From NCBI RefSeq assembly GCF_000092925.1, contig NC_014217.1, positions 2,046,001 to 2,110,000 of the forward strand: DNA of 64,000 nucleotides, written 5' to 3'. The position numbers and the translations under genes were made by a program. Under the pieces are notes generated by a model. That model saw only the letters and a program-made list of their open reading frames with translations, was not told where the DNA came from and searched no databases. Source of the stretch: Ancylobacter novellus DSM 506 (GTDB lineage: Bacteria > Pseudomonadota > Alphaproteobacteria > Rhizobiales > Xanthobacteraceae). Below, in pieces: positions 24,256 to 30,466 of this stretch (position 1 is its first letter; each line of letters starts with the position of its first letter).

Positions 24256-24714
24256 ATGGCTCGATTGACCGTAAACGGCCGCGTCGAGGAGTTCGAGGCC
24301 GAGCCCGACACGCCGCTTCTCTGGGTCCTGCGCGAGCAGCTCGGCATGACCGGCACCAAGTTCGGCTGTGGCATCGCCCAGTGCGGCGCCTGCACCGTGC
24401 ACATAGACGGCGTCGCCACCCGCTCTTGCGTCATGCCGGTCTCCTCCATCGAGGAGAGCCAGAAGATCGTCACCATAGAGGGCCTGTCGCCGGACGGCTC
24501 GCATCCCGTGCAGAAGGCGTGGCTGGCGCTCGACGTGCCGCAATGCGGCTACTGCCAGACCGGCATGATCATGGCCGCCGCCAGCCTGCTGGAGAGCAAC
24601 CCGCAGCCGAGCGACGCCGACATCGCCGCCGAGATCACCAATATCTGCCGCTGCGGCACCTATAACCGCGTCCGCGCCGCCATCCACATGGCGGCCGGCG
24701 ACAAGGCCGGCTGA
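24256..24714 (+). CDS. [2Fe-2S] subunit of a molybdenum hydroxylase (IorA/CoxS-like)
   Basis: This 152-residue protein holds two [2Fe-2S] domains: a plant-ferredoxin type (CGCGIAQCGACTVH) and an all-helical type (CGYCQTGM...CRCGTY). It transfers electrons from the Mo subunit encoded next. No FAD subunit gene is present, as in isoquinoline 1-oxidoreductase-type enzymes, where electrons pass to cytochrome c. The downstream cytochrome gene fits that route. Confidence 0.93.
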   Translation: MARLTVNGRVEEFEAEPDTPLLWVLREQLGMTGTKFGCGIAQCGACTVHIDGVATRSCVMPVSSIEESQKIVTIEGLSPDGSHPVQKAWLALDVPQCGYCQTGMIMAAASLLESNPQPSDADIAAEITNICRCGTYNRVRAAIHMAAGDKAG

Positions 24715-24725
24715 GGGAGGCGCAG

Positions 24726-26924
24726 ATGACCATCGCGCAGAAATTCCCAGCCGTCTCCCGCCGCAATTTCCTCGCCGGCTCGGCCGCGGCGGTCGGCGGC
24801 CTGTCGCTCGGCTTCCACATCCCCTTCGCCGGCAAGGCCTTCGCGCAGGACGCCGCAAACCTGCCGCCGGAGGTCAATGCCTGGGTGGTGGTGAAGCCGG
24901 ACGACACCGTCGTCATCCGCGTCGCCCGCTCGGAGATGGGCCAGGGCACGCTCACGGGCCTCGCCCAGCTCGTCGCCGAGGAACTGGAATGCGACTGGTC
25001 GAAGGTGACGACCGAATACCCGCCGCCCGGCGAGAACCTCAAGCGCAACCGCGTCTGGGGCAGCTATTCCACCGGCGGCTCGCGCGGCATCCGCGACTCC
25101 CATGATTATGTCCGCAAGGGCGGCGCCGCCGCGCGCGAGATGCTCATCGCCGCCGCCGCCGCGCAATGGGGCGTATCGGTCGGCGAATGCGCGGCGGCCA
25201 GCAGCGTCATCACCCACGGCCCGAGCGGGCGCACGCTGCGCTTCGGCGAGGTGGCGGAAGCCGCCGGCAAGCTGACGCCGCCTTCCGACGTCAAGCTGAA
25301 GGACCCGAAGGACTGGAAGATCGCCGGCAAGCCGCTGGCGCGCCTCGACACCGCCGACAAGCTCACCGGCCGCCAAGTCTACGGCGCCGACCTCAAGCTG
25401 CCCGGCATGCTCAATGCCGCCATCAAGGCCTGCCCGGTCTTCGGCGGCAAGGTCGCGAGCTTCGATGCGGCCGCGGTCGAGAAGATGCCCGGCGTGAAGA
25501 AGGTGGTGAAGGTCGACGACACCGCCGTCGCCGTCGTCGCCGACACCTGGTGGCGGGCCAAGACCGCGCTCGACGCGCTCCCCATCACCTGGGACGAGGG
25601 CCCGAACACCGGCGTCTCCTCCGCCTCCATCGCCGAGATGCTGCGCGCCGGGCTCGATGCCGAGGACGCCTTCGTCGGCAACCGGCAGGGCGATGCCAAG
25701 GGCGAGCTCGCCAAGGGCGCGCCGGCGGGCGGCAAGATCGTCACCGCCAGCTACGCCTTCCCCTATCAGAACCACGCCACCATGGAGCCGATGAACGCCA
25801 CCGCGCTCTACACGCCGGAGAAGTGCGAGGTGTGGGTGCCGACGCAGAACGGCGAATCCAGCCTCGCCGTGGTGGCGGAAGCCTCCGGCCTGCCGGTGGC
25901 GCAGTGCGAGGTCTACAAGATCCATCTCGGCGGCGGCTTCGGCCGACGCGGCAACTTCCAGGACTATGTCCGCCAGTCCGTGAGCATCGCCAAGCAGATG
26001 CCCGGCACGCCGGTAAAGCTGCTGTGGTCGCGCGAGGAGGACATGCTCCACGGCAACTACCACCCGACGACGCAAGCCAAGCTCACCGCCGCGCTCGATG
26101 CGCAGGGCAATGTAACAGCGATGCACATGCGCATCTCCGGCCAGTCCATCCTCGCGACCGTGCGGCCGGAAGGCATGCAGGGCGGCATGGACCCGGTGGT
26201 GTTCCAGGGGCTCACCGCCAATCTGCCGGAGGGCCATCTCGGCTACACCATTCCGAACCTGCTCGTCGACCACGCCATGCGCAACCCGCCGATCCCGCCG
26301 GGCTTCTGGCGCGGGGTGAACCTCAACCAGAACGCCATCTATGTCGAATGCTTCATCGACGAGATGGCGCATGCGGCCGGCATCGAGTCCCTCGCCTTCC
26401 GCCGCAAGCTGATGGCGAACCATCCCAAGCACCTCGCGGTGCTGGAGGCCGCCGCCAGGGGCATCGGCTGGGACACGCCGCCGGCGGAAGGGCGCGGGCG
26501 CGGGCTCGCCCAGATCATGGGCTTCGCCTCCTATGTCGCTGCCGCCGCCGAGGTGTCGGTGACGAATGGCGAGCTCACCATCCACCGCATCGTCGCCGCC
26601 ACCGATCCGGGCCATGTCGTCAACCCCGCGCAGATCGAGCGGCAGGTCGAGGGCTCCTTCGTCTACGGCCTCTCCGCCTGCCTCTATGGCGAGTGCACGG
26701 TGAAGGGCGGGCGCATGGAGCAGGAGAACTTCGACACCTACGAGGTGATGCGCCTCGCGCAGATGCCCGCGGTCGAGACCGTGCTCGTGCCGTCCGGCGG
26801 CTTCTGGGGCGGGGTCGGCGAGCCGACCATCGCGGTCGCCGGCCCGGCAGTGCTCAACGCCGTTTTCGCGGCGACGGGCAAGCGCTACCGTACCCTGCCG
26901 CTCAAGAACCATGAGCTGAGCTGA
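24726..26924 (+). CDS. Molybdopterin-binding subunit of an IorB-type Mo hydroxylase
   Basis: This is a 732-residue protein with a twin-arginine signal (SRRNFLAGSAAAVGGL) and cleavage near AFAQ, so it acts in the periplasm, carrying the small subunit with it. Mo-pterin-binding parts include SEMGQG, GGGFGRRG, and the C-terminal GGFWGGVGEPT that provides the catalytic Glu. Family members hydroxylate N-heterocycles or oxidise aldehydes. The gene starts 11 bases after the [2Fe-2S] gene, and its stop touches the cytochrome start. The substrate is unknown; the Sox-type neighbours suggest a sulfur-containing compound. Confidence 0.9.
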   Translation: MTIAQKFPAVSRRNFLAGSAAAVGGLSLGFHIPFAGKAFAQDAANLPPEVNAWVVVKPDDTVVIRVARSEMGQGTLTGLAQLVAEELECDWSKVTTEYPPPGENLKRNRVWGSYSTGGSRGIRDSHDYVRKGGAAAREMLIAAAAAQWGVSVGECAAASSVITHGPSGRTLRFGEVAEAAGKLTPPSDVKLKDPKDWKIAGKPLARLDTADKLTGRQVYGADLKLPGMLNAAIKACPVFGGKVASFDAAAVEKMPGVKKVVKVDDTAVAVVADTWWRAKTALDALPITWDEGPNTGVSSASIAEMLRAGLDAEDAFVGNRQGDAKGELAKGAPAGGKIVTASYAFPYQNHATMEPMNATALYTPEKCEVWVPTQNGESSLAVVAEASGLPVAQCEVYKIHLGGGFGRRGNFQDYVRQSVSIAKQMPGTPVKLLWSREEDMLHGNYHPTTQAKLTAALDAQGNVTAMHMRISGQSILATVRPEGMQGGMDPVVFQGLTANLPEGHLGYTIPNLLVDHAMRNPPIPPGFWRGVNLNQNAIYVECFIDEMAHAAGIESLAFRRKLMANHPKHLAVLEAAARGIGWDTPPAEGRGRGLAQIMGFASYVAAAAEVSVTNGELTIHRIVAATDPGHVVNPAQIERQVEGSFVYGLSACLYGECTVKGGRMEQENFDTYEVMRLAQMPAVETVLVPSGGFWGGVGEPTIAVAGPAVLNAVFAATGKRYRTLPLKNHELS

Positions 26925-29379: not shown

Positions 29380-29696
29380 GCCGCACCCTCGTCAGCGTGC
29401 CGAAGACCGCCAGGGCCGGCGACATCGTCGACATCCGCGCCATGATCGCCCACCCGATGGAGACCGGCTACCGCATGGGGCCGAACGGTCAGGCGATCCC
29501 GCGCAACATCATCCGCCATTTCGCCTGCGACTACGATGGCGAGGAGGTGTTCTCCGCCGAGTTCCACCCGGCCATGTCCGCCAATCCCTTCGTCGCCTTC
29601 AGCACGGTGGCGACCAAGAGCGGCACGCTGACCTTCCGCTGGACCGACGATGACGGCAAGGTCGAGACGGCGAGCGCCGAGATTTCGGTGAGCTGA
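29376..29696 (+). CDS. soxZ: SoxZ-like carrier partner protein
   Basis: This 106-residue protein matches SoxZ throughout: IVDIRAMIAHPMETGYR, NIIRHFACDYDGEEVFSAEFHPAMSANPF, and LTFRWTDDDG. It has no signal peptide, so it is presumably co-exported with the SoxY-like protein through the Tat system, as known for SoxYZ. It overlaps both neighbours by a few bases. Confidence 0.92.
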   Translation: MSRTLVSVPKTARAGDIVDIRAMIAHPMETGYRMGPNGQAIPRNIIRHFACDYDGEEVFSAEFHPAMSANPFVAFSTVATKSGTLTFRWTDDDGKVETASAEISVS

Positions 29697-30466
29697 TGAG
29701 GGCTCGCCTCGCGCTGGCCGCCCTGCTCTATGCCGGCTCGGCCGCCGCGCAGGCGATCCCGGCGGCCGAGCGCCGCTCCGGCACCGATTTCATGTCGGCG
29801 CAGACGCGGGCGGTACAGGCCGACGACACCGCCAATCCCGGCATGCTCTGGGTCTTGCAGGGCGAAACGCTGTGGAACGAGCCGGCGGGTGCCTCCGGCC
29901 GCTCCTGCGCCTCCTGCCATGGCGAGGCGGCGGCCTCGATGCGCGGCGTCGCCGCCCGCTACCCGGCCTTCGACGCGGCGAGCGGCGCCCCCATCGACCT
30001 CGCAGGCAAGATCGACCAGTGCCGCACTCAACGCCAGCAGGCAGAAACCCTGCCTCGCGAGAGCGAGGACGCGCTCGGCCTCGCCGCCTATGTCGGCCAC
30101 CAGTCGCGCGGCATGCCCATCGCCCCGCCCAACGATCCGCGCCTCGACGCCGCGCGTGCCGAGGGCAAGCGCCTGTTCGAGACGCGCATGGGCCAGCTCG
30201 ATCTCGCCTGCTCGTCCTGCCACGATGCCTACTGGCGCGGGCGGCTCGGCGGCAGCGCCGTCACGCAAGCGCACCCGACCGGCTATCCGATCTATCGGCT
30301 GGAATGGCAGGCGGTCGGCTCGCTGCAGCGGCGCATGCGCGGCTGCATGGTCGGCGTGCGCGCCGAGCCCTTCGCCTATGGCGCGGCGGAGTTCATCGCG
30401 CTGGAGCTCTACTTGAACAGCCGCGCCGCCGGGATGCCCGTCGAGACGCCGGCGGTGAGGCCGTAA
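29696..30466 (+). CDS. soxA: SoxA-like dihaem cytochrome c
   Basis: This 256-residue protein has a signal peptide ending AAAQ. Haem motifs are CASCH (71-75) and CSSCH (172-176), and Cys217 in RGCMVGVRAEP matches the thiolate ligand of the active-site haem. QCRT...AETLP and YPIYRLEWQ are further SoxA features. It would pair with SoxX to load the AACIE arm protein. It is the last gene of the operon; no soxB or soxCD follows. Confidence 0.9.
   Translation: MRARLALAALLYAGSAAAQAIPAAERRSGTDFMSAQTRAVQADDTANPGMLWVLQGETLWNEPAGASGRSCASCHGEAAASMRGVAARYPAFDAASGAPIDLAGKIDQCRTQRQQAETLPRESEDALGLAAYVGHQSRGMPIAPPNDPRLDAARAEGKRLFETRMGQLDLACSSCHDAYWRGRLGGSAVTQAHPTGYPIYRLEWQAVGSLQRRMRGCMVGVRAEPFAYGAAEFIALELYLNSRAAGMPVETPAVRP

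Follow-up and report, generated by a model that had tools for sequence, protein, structure and literature searches.

The subject of this study is an eight-gene operon in which Sox-type genes follow those of a molybdenum (Mo) hydroxylase. It lies at 24256–30466 of the window, the whole 64 kb stretch of DNA that was analysed (positions 2046001–2110000 of contig C1), within a genome that forms a single contig of 4,765,023 bases and belongs to an organism that we take to be Ancylobacter novellus DSM 506, formerly Starkeya novella. In the list of open reading frames (ORFs) of the window, the eight genes are arranged head to tail on the + strand with all frames intact; apart from a single gap of 11 bases, all junctions overlap, with the starts of FccB, SoxX, and SoxY chosen within longer open frames.

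Gene identities were assigned by NCBIfam and Pfam profile searches. The operon opens with the Fe-S subunit of the Mo hydroxylase (24256–24714), an IorA-like protein of the two-2Fe-2S type (Fer2/Fer2_2), followed by the IorB/AldF-like Mo subunit (24726–26924; MoCoBD_1/MoCoBD_2), which carries a twin-arginine translocation (Tat) signal and has kept Glu699. Next come two optional members, a monohaem c-type cytochrome of 107 amino acids (26924–27247) and an FccB-like flavoprotein with a Tat/twin-arginine (RR) signal that retains C191, C362, and C72 (27222–28496; FCSD_central and FCSD-flav_bind). The remaining genes encode the SoxX cytochrome (28493–28909; TIGR04485, 71 bits with a cut-off of 61), a SoxY-related AACIE arm protein with a Tat-like RR signal (28906–29379; TIGR04487, 229.4 bits, cut-off 172), SoxZ (29376–29696; TIGR04490, 97 bits, cut-off 76), and a SoxA of the two-haem type with C217 kept (29696–30466; TIGR04484, 229 bits, cut-off 110). 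A flavin adenine dinucleotide (FAD) subunit was not found among the eight operon genes, and the ORF directly upstream of the operon (23773–24099) matched no Pfam or NCBIfam model, its counterpart adjoining the operon in only one of the loci compared (L114). ORFs and profiles thereby bear out the original prediction for this locus, which had described a SoxY homologue ending in AACIE, a Tat-exported IorAB-type Mo hydroxylase in first position without an FAD subunit, a monohaem cytochrome, and genes that overlap or nearly touch. Its statement that soxB is missing holds for the operon, but not for the genome, where soxB is found at 1014051–1015733.

The arm protein ends in TLAACIEDLS, with the AACIE tail encoded at 29353–29367 (+), and scores 92.5 bits against the family of true SoxY proteins (TIGR04488), under the cut-off of 125. 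Both Cys152 and Glu154 are conserved in 50/50 loci (the window and 49 loci of the same family); in a wider set of 139 AACIE-type tails, all of which contain the Cys by definition, the Glu is present in 133. The arm cysteine aligns with its position in solved SoxY structures. An AlphaFold2 model of the protein (mean predicted local distance difference test score, pLDDT, of 81.5) comprises a confident beta-rich domain and a final block with a mean pLDDT of 50 that includes the tail, as would be expected of a mobile arm. SoxX and SoxA display the features of SoxAX, namely haem motifs and the SoxA active-site cysteine: the CXXCH motif of SoxX as well as both CXXCH motifs, C217, R213, and R243 of SoxA are conserved in 48/48 family loci, and the nearest PDB entry to SoxA is 1h31, a two-haem SoxA. 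Residue roles are those known from the literature on Sox, flavocytochrome c sulfide dehydrogenase (FCSD), and xanthine oxidase, with R213 and R243 presumably taking part in thiosulfate binding.

In the FccB-like flavoprotein, which contains both FCSD domains (PF21706, 162.9 bits; PF09242, 87.2 bits), C191 and C362, which we take to form a redox cysteine pair, are kept in 46/46 and 45/46 family loci, respectively, and C72 in 40/46. The expectation that SoxX, SoxA, and the flavoprotein retain their key cysteines and haem ligands therefore holds across the family loci, for the flavoprotein largely so. No FccA model of NCBIfam or Pfam matched the 107-residue monohaem protein that precedes it.

The two-domain 2Fe-2S subunit and the Mo subunit with Glu699 (Fer2, Fer2_2, MoCoBD_1, and MoCoBD_2) place the enzyme in the xanthine oxidase family; Glu699, presumably catalytic, is kept in 46/47 family loci. 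The top NCBIfam hit of the Mo subunit, XdhA_XDHase, reaches 173.7 bits, far under its cut-off of 780, and because no equivalog scored over its cut-off, we give the subunit no specific enzyme name. Among solved structures, its top match is the large subunit of an aldehyde dehydrogenase (8gy3_C; 266 bits, E 7e-78, near full length), an enzyme that is presumably periplasmic, while the second-ranked PDB match reaches 86 bits only.

Occurrence and composition of the gene set

A tail was considered AACIE type if it fits [AGSP]ACx[EDI], which includes AACVE (L157) and AACLE (L168) and leaves GACAS outside. Among 149 genomes of the same family, 49 carry a gene over the TIGR04487 cut-off, at 50 places, and a Mo homologue (E ≤ 1e-150, with up to 7 candidates scored per genome) lies within 10 kb of 47 of these 50 genes, compared with 0 of 100 sub-cut-off SoxY genes, which were taken from among the matches listed with no flank filter. 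The three AACIE genes without a Mo homologue within 10 kb are situated near contig ends, on the upstream side of the operon. In one genome (G031), the Mo homologue is on the strand opposite to the AACIE gene, and some Mo match was obtained in all 49 AACIE genomes, although in one of them (G068) this is only a 40% identical one elsewhere.

The association extends beyond the family. In a sample of the phylum, 15/398 genomes scored over the TIGR04487 cut-off, including four from a different group (f66) with genomes of 1.7–2.1 Mb. A collection of named species, consisting of the best 80 of at least 587 stretches encoding relatives of the query, includes Ancylobacter, Azospirillum, Mesorhizobium, Xanthobacter, Chelatococcus, and Methylobacterium as well as Belnapia, Bradyrhizobium, Polaromonas, Rubrivivax, Steroidobacter, and a Rokubacteria metagenome-assembled genome. 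Since the gene set recurs in many genera, it is not a chance assembly. From the family, named, and phylum sets combined, 143 loci were selected by SoxY and not by the Mo genes, 124 of which had enough flank to be judged; these 124 places are not all independent, because named and unnamed loci overlap (e.g., L047 with L113, L081 with L117, and L067 with L187). The Fe-S and Mo genes are present at all 121 AACIE-type places with enough flank, while the three flanked SoxY loci without Mo genes have the tails GGCGG, GGCGG, and GACAS. Eighteen of the 19 loci set aside for short flanks are of AACIE type, and even there the Mo gene is found on the same strand in 8/18 and on the other strand in one (L080). 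The proposal that the Mo genes should travel with AACIE proteins is thus strongly supported (47/50 and 121/121), and from this linkage we conclude that the Mo hydroxylase and the AACxE arm would serve one process.

Records L140, L141, L144, and L192, which are labelled as Mycobacterium, Marinimicrobia, or Bordetella, carry Proteobacteria-like clusters; these labels are doubtful, and contamination or transfer may account for them.

The core of the module consists of the Fe-S and Mo subunits followed by SoxX, SoxY, SoxZ, and SoxA, while FccB and the cytochrome are optional. At the 121 AACIE-type places, SoxZ was never unmatched, SoxX once, and SoxA at 6; for FccB, matches are missing from 17 places and for the cytochrome from 38, a number in which short, diverged cytochromes that escape the search may be included. 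The six core genes were all found at 115/121 places and all eight genes at 78/121. The adjacency of an FccB-like gene, which had been anticipated, therefore applies to most AACIE-type places, but not as a fixed feature. In one locus (L176), the operon is split by approximately 5 kb of other sequence between SoxX and SoxY. In L065 and L192, a protein resembling a Bug/TctC solute receptor (a label that we assume) follows SoxZ and has no NCBIfam match.

Across 50 same-family loci from 22 genera, nothing beyond the operon was widely conserved in the flanks. In 90 further loci, the most prominent flanking element was a two-component pair (25 loci); other flanking sequence clusters, such as an ATP-binding cassette (ABC) ATPase (18 loci), were scattered in place. 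A gene in the position expected for XdhC, found at 9 loci by loose clustering, was upheld by close similarity in L115 and L116 only and was discarded as a conserved neighbour.

A phylogenetic tree of Mo subunits (FastTree, midpoint root), comprising the window and 115 of 162 Mo matches, places most Sox-linked enzymes in one group of 99 rows. Nine forms without Sox genes are nested within this group and are read best as departures from the Sox linkage; eleven are in a separate group that also contains a second type of Sox-linked enzyme. The SoxXYZA set is preceded by two or three Mo hydroxylases in L058, L075, L076, L082, and L083 (g9) as well as in L079 (g12), and in the five g9 loci the Sox-proximal hydroxylase is of a distinct type, approximately 54% identical.

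As to INDEPENDENCE of thiosulfate oxidation, the presence of soxB was surveyed by searches that covered soxB and not soxCD. It scored over cut-off in 43/59 genomes searched; with G164 set aside, because its SoxY ends in GGCGG, 58 AACIE-type genomes remain, 42 of which contain soxB. In 16/58, soxB was not found (E ≤ 1e-100), and the same is true for 11/51 AACIE-type genomes with a completeness of ≥90% and a contamination of ≤5%. The 58 genomes include five below the TIGR04487 cut-off (four f18, one f2), and when these are dropped, 12/53 genomes remain in which soxB was not found. The f18 genomes, which make up four of the 16, have tails AACLI or AACVI just below the cut-off together with Mo and FccB genes (L103–L106), and soxB was not found there. 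For 12 of these 16 genomes, no SoxY-domain gene other than the AACIE one was found. Because of the Mo linkage and of these genomes in which neither soxB nor another SoxY was found, the module probably constitutes a pathway of its own, centred on the arm protein, and the same genomes suggest that the classical thiosulfate finish would not be needed.

The genome under study contains three SoxY-domain genes, one of which is that of the operon. Its only soxB match (1014051–1015733) is approximately 1 Mb away and adjoins a SoxY gene ending in GGCGG; soxC and soxD are reported beside this main-cluster soxB in the accessible part of PMC3797975. Among the window ORFs, soxCD was not recognised, with no model search made, and according to the same part of that paper it is missing from the second cluster. 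The idea that the operon substitutes for an absent soxB was rejected, since soxB is present elsewhere in the genome. Operon SoxY, SoxZ, and FccB are 39–43% identical to their main-cluster matches and SoxA is 29% identical, with one CXXCH in the main-cluster SoxA ORF compared to two in that of the operon. These low identities and the differing haem count indicate that the operon is an old paralogous set rather than a fresh duplicate. The same genome also encodes a fused SoxYZ of the quinoprotein-associated family TIGR04557 (L036:9574–10428, −) near apparent genes for pyrroloquinoline quinone (PQQ) biosynthesis (pqq; by reading only), which is, by analogy, a parallel case of a second SoxYZ relative apparently tied to a dehydrogenase. 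Operon SoxY and SoxZ, which are encoded by separate genes, score 49.9 and 49.0 bits against this family (cut-off 140), and no match to the operon's SoxX or SoxA was obtained within 20 kb around the fused gene.

The operon itself is already in print. The accessible part of PMC3797975 describes a second sox cluster, soxX2Y2Z2A2F2 (Snov_1982–1977), with the xanthine-oxidase-family genes Snov_1975/1976 and without SoxB and SoxCD. In growth with glucose, methanol, or thiosulfate, neither SoxAX2 nor SoxYZ2 was detected as protein and expression was very low by quantitative reverse transcription PCR, one flavocytochrome subunit was detected at a low level except on glucose, and the main cluster was named as the one in use (PMC3797975, accessible part). 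One outcome named as speaking against the original prediction was a complete soxB/soxCD set elsewhere in combination with normal growth on thiosulfate that requires this arm protein; such a set does exist, but according to the accessible text of PMC3797975 the proteins of the second cluster were undetected and the main cluster is used.

Adjoining regulator, promoter motif, and other genes of the window

Downstream of the operon, on the − strand, a sensor histidine kinase (30647–32209; HAMP, HisKA, and HATPase_c) and an OmpR-type response regulator (32164–32883) form a two-component system (30647–32883) that did not figure in the original prediction. In 30 other loci, relatives of the kinase (55–94% identity) and of the regulator (73–98%) are likewise present, so that the pair adjoins the operon in 31/140 loci including the window, on either side and on either strand. 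Upstream of the operon, the + strand contains two copies of a putative response-regulator site: TTCTGCGACAA at 24160–24170, with at most 1 mismatch to TTCTGCGACAG, and a downstream copy with a promoter-like tail, TTCTGCGACAG-N7-CTAG, at 24192–24213, which was recovered by a spaced pattern search.

In a comparison of 126 loci with upstream sequence, TTCTGCGACAG (≤2 mismatches) precedes the operon in 28/31 loci with the two-component system versus 6/95 others. In L137, it is located at −295, and the two-component loci without the motif are L116, L136, and L140. Two of the six motif loci without an adjoining pair (L047 and L113) represent one species, Ancylobacter defluvii, the regulator of which is encoded on another contig. 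Within the window, TTCTGCGACAG occurs only at 24160 and 24192 (≤1 mismatch, both strands), both before the operon. The spaced pattern TTCTGCGACA-N5..8-CTAG was found once per genome in 4/4 Ancylobacter genomes, each time before the operon, and a reversed control pattern gave one match, in the window's own genome; of the 15 family genomes that carry the regulator, four were searched, and the pattern itself came in part from the same genus. In several relatives, an upstream site consists of two units resembling TGCGACA at a distance of ten bases, an arrangement typical of sites for OmpR-type regulators, as seen in an alignment of 19 chosen loci in which conservation arises partly by construction, because they were aligned on the motif (L137 remained unaligned). 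The association of motif and regulator is to be attributed in part to shared ancestry, since the loci with the two-component system have a common descent and some of them are duplicates. Apparently, this is a two-component promoter with one strong target.

Further along the window, a chemosensory cluster (33811–45520) encodes CheR with TPR, a methyl-accepting chemotaxis protein with a dCache domain, CheA with a receiver domain, and CheB, together with CheW-like ORFs (by reading). The organism is described as non-motile in the accessible part of PMC3570799, and the cluster is perhaps an alternative chemosensory system. It is followed by a xanthine/uracil-type permease, a STAS protein, and a small HATPase_c_2 kinase (45869–48539), and at 59342–63880 by an RTX calcium-binding repeat protein that adjoins apparent ABC/HlyD-type exporter genes (exporter by reading only).

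Possible function of the operon

The reading that we favour, with a probability of roughly 40%, is that a Mo hydroxylase has co-opted a SoxYZ carrier and that the operon encodes a dedicated module for oxidation in the periplasm; of the possible substrates, a small organosulfur compound, and not thiosulfate, is the most likely. The sensor kinase would respond either to this substrate or to an effect that it has, whereupon the regulator would switch on mainly this operon. Cys152 of the arm would then be charged by SoxAX2, through oxidative coupling, with a small compound that bears a thiol or thione group, just as SoxAX couples thiosulfate in the classical system. The Mo enzyme would hydroxylate a carbon (aldehyde or heterocyclic) in the organic part of this compound, either while it is bound to the carrier or just after its release, and a c-type cytochrome would accept the electrons. 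In loci that have them, FccB and its cytochrome would dispose of the freed sulfide or persulfide. The near-constant presence of SoxX and SoxA suggests oxidative loading through sulfur, and the kinship of the Mo subunit points to an aldehyde or heterocyclic carbon as the site of oxidation. Low expression on glucose, methanol, and thiosulfate is as expected of an operon awaiting another inducer (PMC3797975, accessible part). A more specific version, a periplasmic organic-sulfur carrier pathway in which the substrate stays tethered via its sulfur to the SoxYZ arm while the Mo hydroxylase oxidises its carbon, is tentative and somewhat doubtful. If true, it would transfer the principle of acyl carriers to the periplasm, and this in many bacteria, the soxXYZA genes of which may today be taken for partial thiosulfate oxidation.

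Several observations weigh against the favoured module. Close relatives of the Mo subunit (58–67%) occur at 20 loci without Sox genes found nearby, and 15 family genomes have a Mo match but no AACIE SoxY; the Mo enzyme therefore need not act on a carrier, and the mixed gene neighbours of the solo relatives gave no substrate clue. Two minimal loci (L065 and L192) consist of Fe-S, Mo, SoxY, and SoxZ genes with SoxX and SoxA not beside them, L065 being near a contig end in a genome with a second set (L054) that is full except for the short cytochrome, and four Methylobacterium loci are without an adjacent SoxA, so SoxAX loading may be dispensable in places or act in trans. A copy of the regulator (≥78%) is found in 15 family genomes and beside the operon in 6 of them, and the neighbours of the regulators away from the operon are mixed and without substrate clue. 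The retained R213 and R243 of SoxA would also suit thiosulfate itself. Finally, in the accessible part of PMC3797975, the authors leaned towards no functional significance, while allowing for other growth conditions.

The substrate could instead be free of sulfur, with Cys152 trapping an aldehyde as a thiohemiacetal that the Mo enzyme would oxidise to a thioester before release, and with SoxAX keeping the cysteine in the appropriate redox state. Such a carrier would parallel the quinoprotein-associated SoxYZ-like proteins, a TIGR04557 member of which is encoded in the same genome, and it is in line with an aldehyde dehydrogenase as the nearest solved structure and with the minimal loci that have Mo and SoxYZ genes alone. 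However, SoxX and SoxA are nearly always kept (unmatched at 1 and 6 of 121 places) and FccB usually so, which points to sulfur chemistry, and no widely conserved candidate for a thioester hydrolase was seen beside the operon, where a minority of the flanking clusters was annotated. We therefore regard a sulfur-free substrate as unlikely. A comparably low estimate applies to two co-regulated but separate jobs, in which the Mo enzyme would act on a free organosulfur or other compound, while SoxXYZA and FccB would capture released sulfide or thiosulfate. Both the Mo relatives without Sox genes and the homology of FccB to sulfide dehydrogenase fit this division, but a sulfur scavenger would not need the Mo genes, which are present at every judged AACIE-type place and not with other SoxY proteins, and the soxB with which to finish thiosulfate was not found in 16/58 genomes.

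It is considerably less probable that SoxYZ2 serves as a sulfur donor, with an arm persulfide made by SoxAX or FccB restoring the essential sulfido ligand of the exported Mo enzyme. The minimal loci would agree with this role, as would the operon having no XdhC maturation gene, the sole XdhC_C match found in the genome being approximately 146 kb away. Yet an XdhC-like gene follows SoxA in L115 and L116 (in L115 below model cut-offs), making ordinary cytosolic sulfuration plausible, and close Mo relatives manage without SoxYZ. Marginally lower still do we place a spare or isoenzyme system for thiosulfate or tetrathionate that borrows SoxB and SoxCD from the main cluster: it would account for the kept C217 and arginines of SoxA and is compatible with soxB in 42/58 AACIE-type genomes and with growth of S. 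novella on tetrathionate (PMC3570799, accessible part), but not with the 16 genomes in which soxB was not found or with proteins undetected on thiosulfate (PMC3797975, accessible part), and it leaves the Mo enzyme unexplained. Least probable is a decaying duplicate without function in this strain, the leaning of the 2013 paper, which matches very low expression under three growth conditions (PMC3797975, accessible part) but conflicts with eight intact frames, kept key residues, wide conservation, and a recurring promoter motif and regulator.

If the favoured module is correct, a widespread gene set that could be filed as an incomplete Sox system would be a different pathway, probably for organic sulfur, and such species would presumably be miscounted in surveys that take soxX, soxY, soxZ, and soxA by themselves as evidence of thiosulfate oxidation. 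The tail offers a simple test, since AACxE-type proteins occurred with Mo genes and GGCGG proteins without them at the places judged, and the two-component promoter offers a direct route to the inducer and hence to the substrate class.

Comparison with known systems

Cluster and protein family have both been named before, and the claim of novelty has been trimmed accordingly. The original prediction had regarded a role of the arm family in this gene set as new: a published role of the AACIE tail was not recognised, but the gene set is described in the accessible part of PMC3797975. A full-text search of PubMed Central (PMC) found no paper containing "SoxY" and "AACIE" together, and among the PMC matches listed, as far as their texts were accessible, none was recognised as addressing the tail or the function of the gene set, with subscription journals mostly uncovered. 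The reading as a periplasmic pathway of its own gains support, as far as a separate module is concerned, from the linkage and from the genomes in which no soxB was found. As far as our searches show, the new elements are the strict linkage of tail and Mo genes, the occurrence in genomes where soxB was not found, the division into core and optional parts, and the candidate regulator and operator. The second sox cluster of Starkeya novella (Snov_1975–1982) is the same gene set as the operon, while the AACIE tail, its spread, the two-component system, and the promoter motif are not mentioned in the accessible part of PMC3797975.

With the NCBIfam family TIGR04487, "SoxY-related AACIE arm protein", operon SoxY shares a score over the cut-off and the same tail, without sequence difference; the family name states no function and does not include the Mo partner. 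The TIGR04557 carrier is likewise a SoxYZ relative, and its name associates it with a dehydrogenase and not with SoxB, but it differs in its fused Y and Z parts, in the other dehydrogenase, and in having no SoxX or SoxA match nearby in this genome. The aldehyde dehydrogenase of PDB 8gy3 shares a near full-length match to its large subunit, of moderate similarity only, a match that does not establish a correspondence of its cytochrome subunit or its substrate to the operon. Flavocytochrome c sulfide dehydrogenase (PDB 5n1t, 3vrd, and 1fcd) shares a near full-length match to FccB, including the cysteines, whereas the operon FccB has a short monohaem cytochrome partner and is optional. Compared to the classical Sox system (SoxXA, SoxYZ, SoxB, and SoxCD), SoxX, SoxZ, and SoxA score over their cut-offs and the arm cysteine is in the same place, but the operon differs by its non-GGCGG arm and by having no soxB, and a Mo enzyme of the xanthine oxidase family takes the place of SoxC, which belongs to the sulfite oxidase family.

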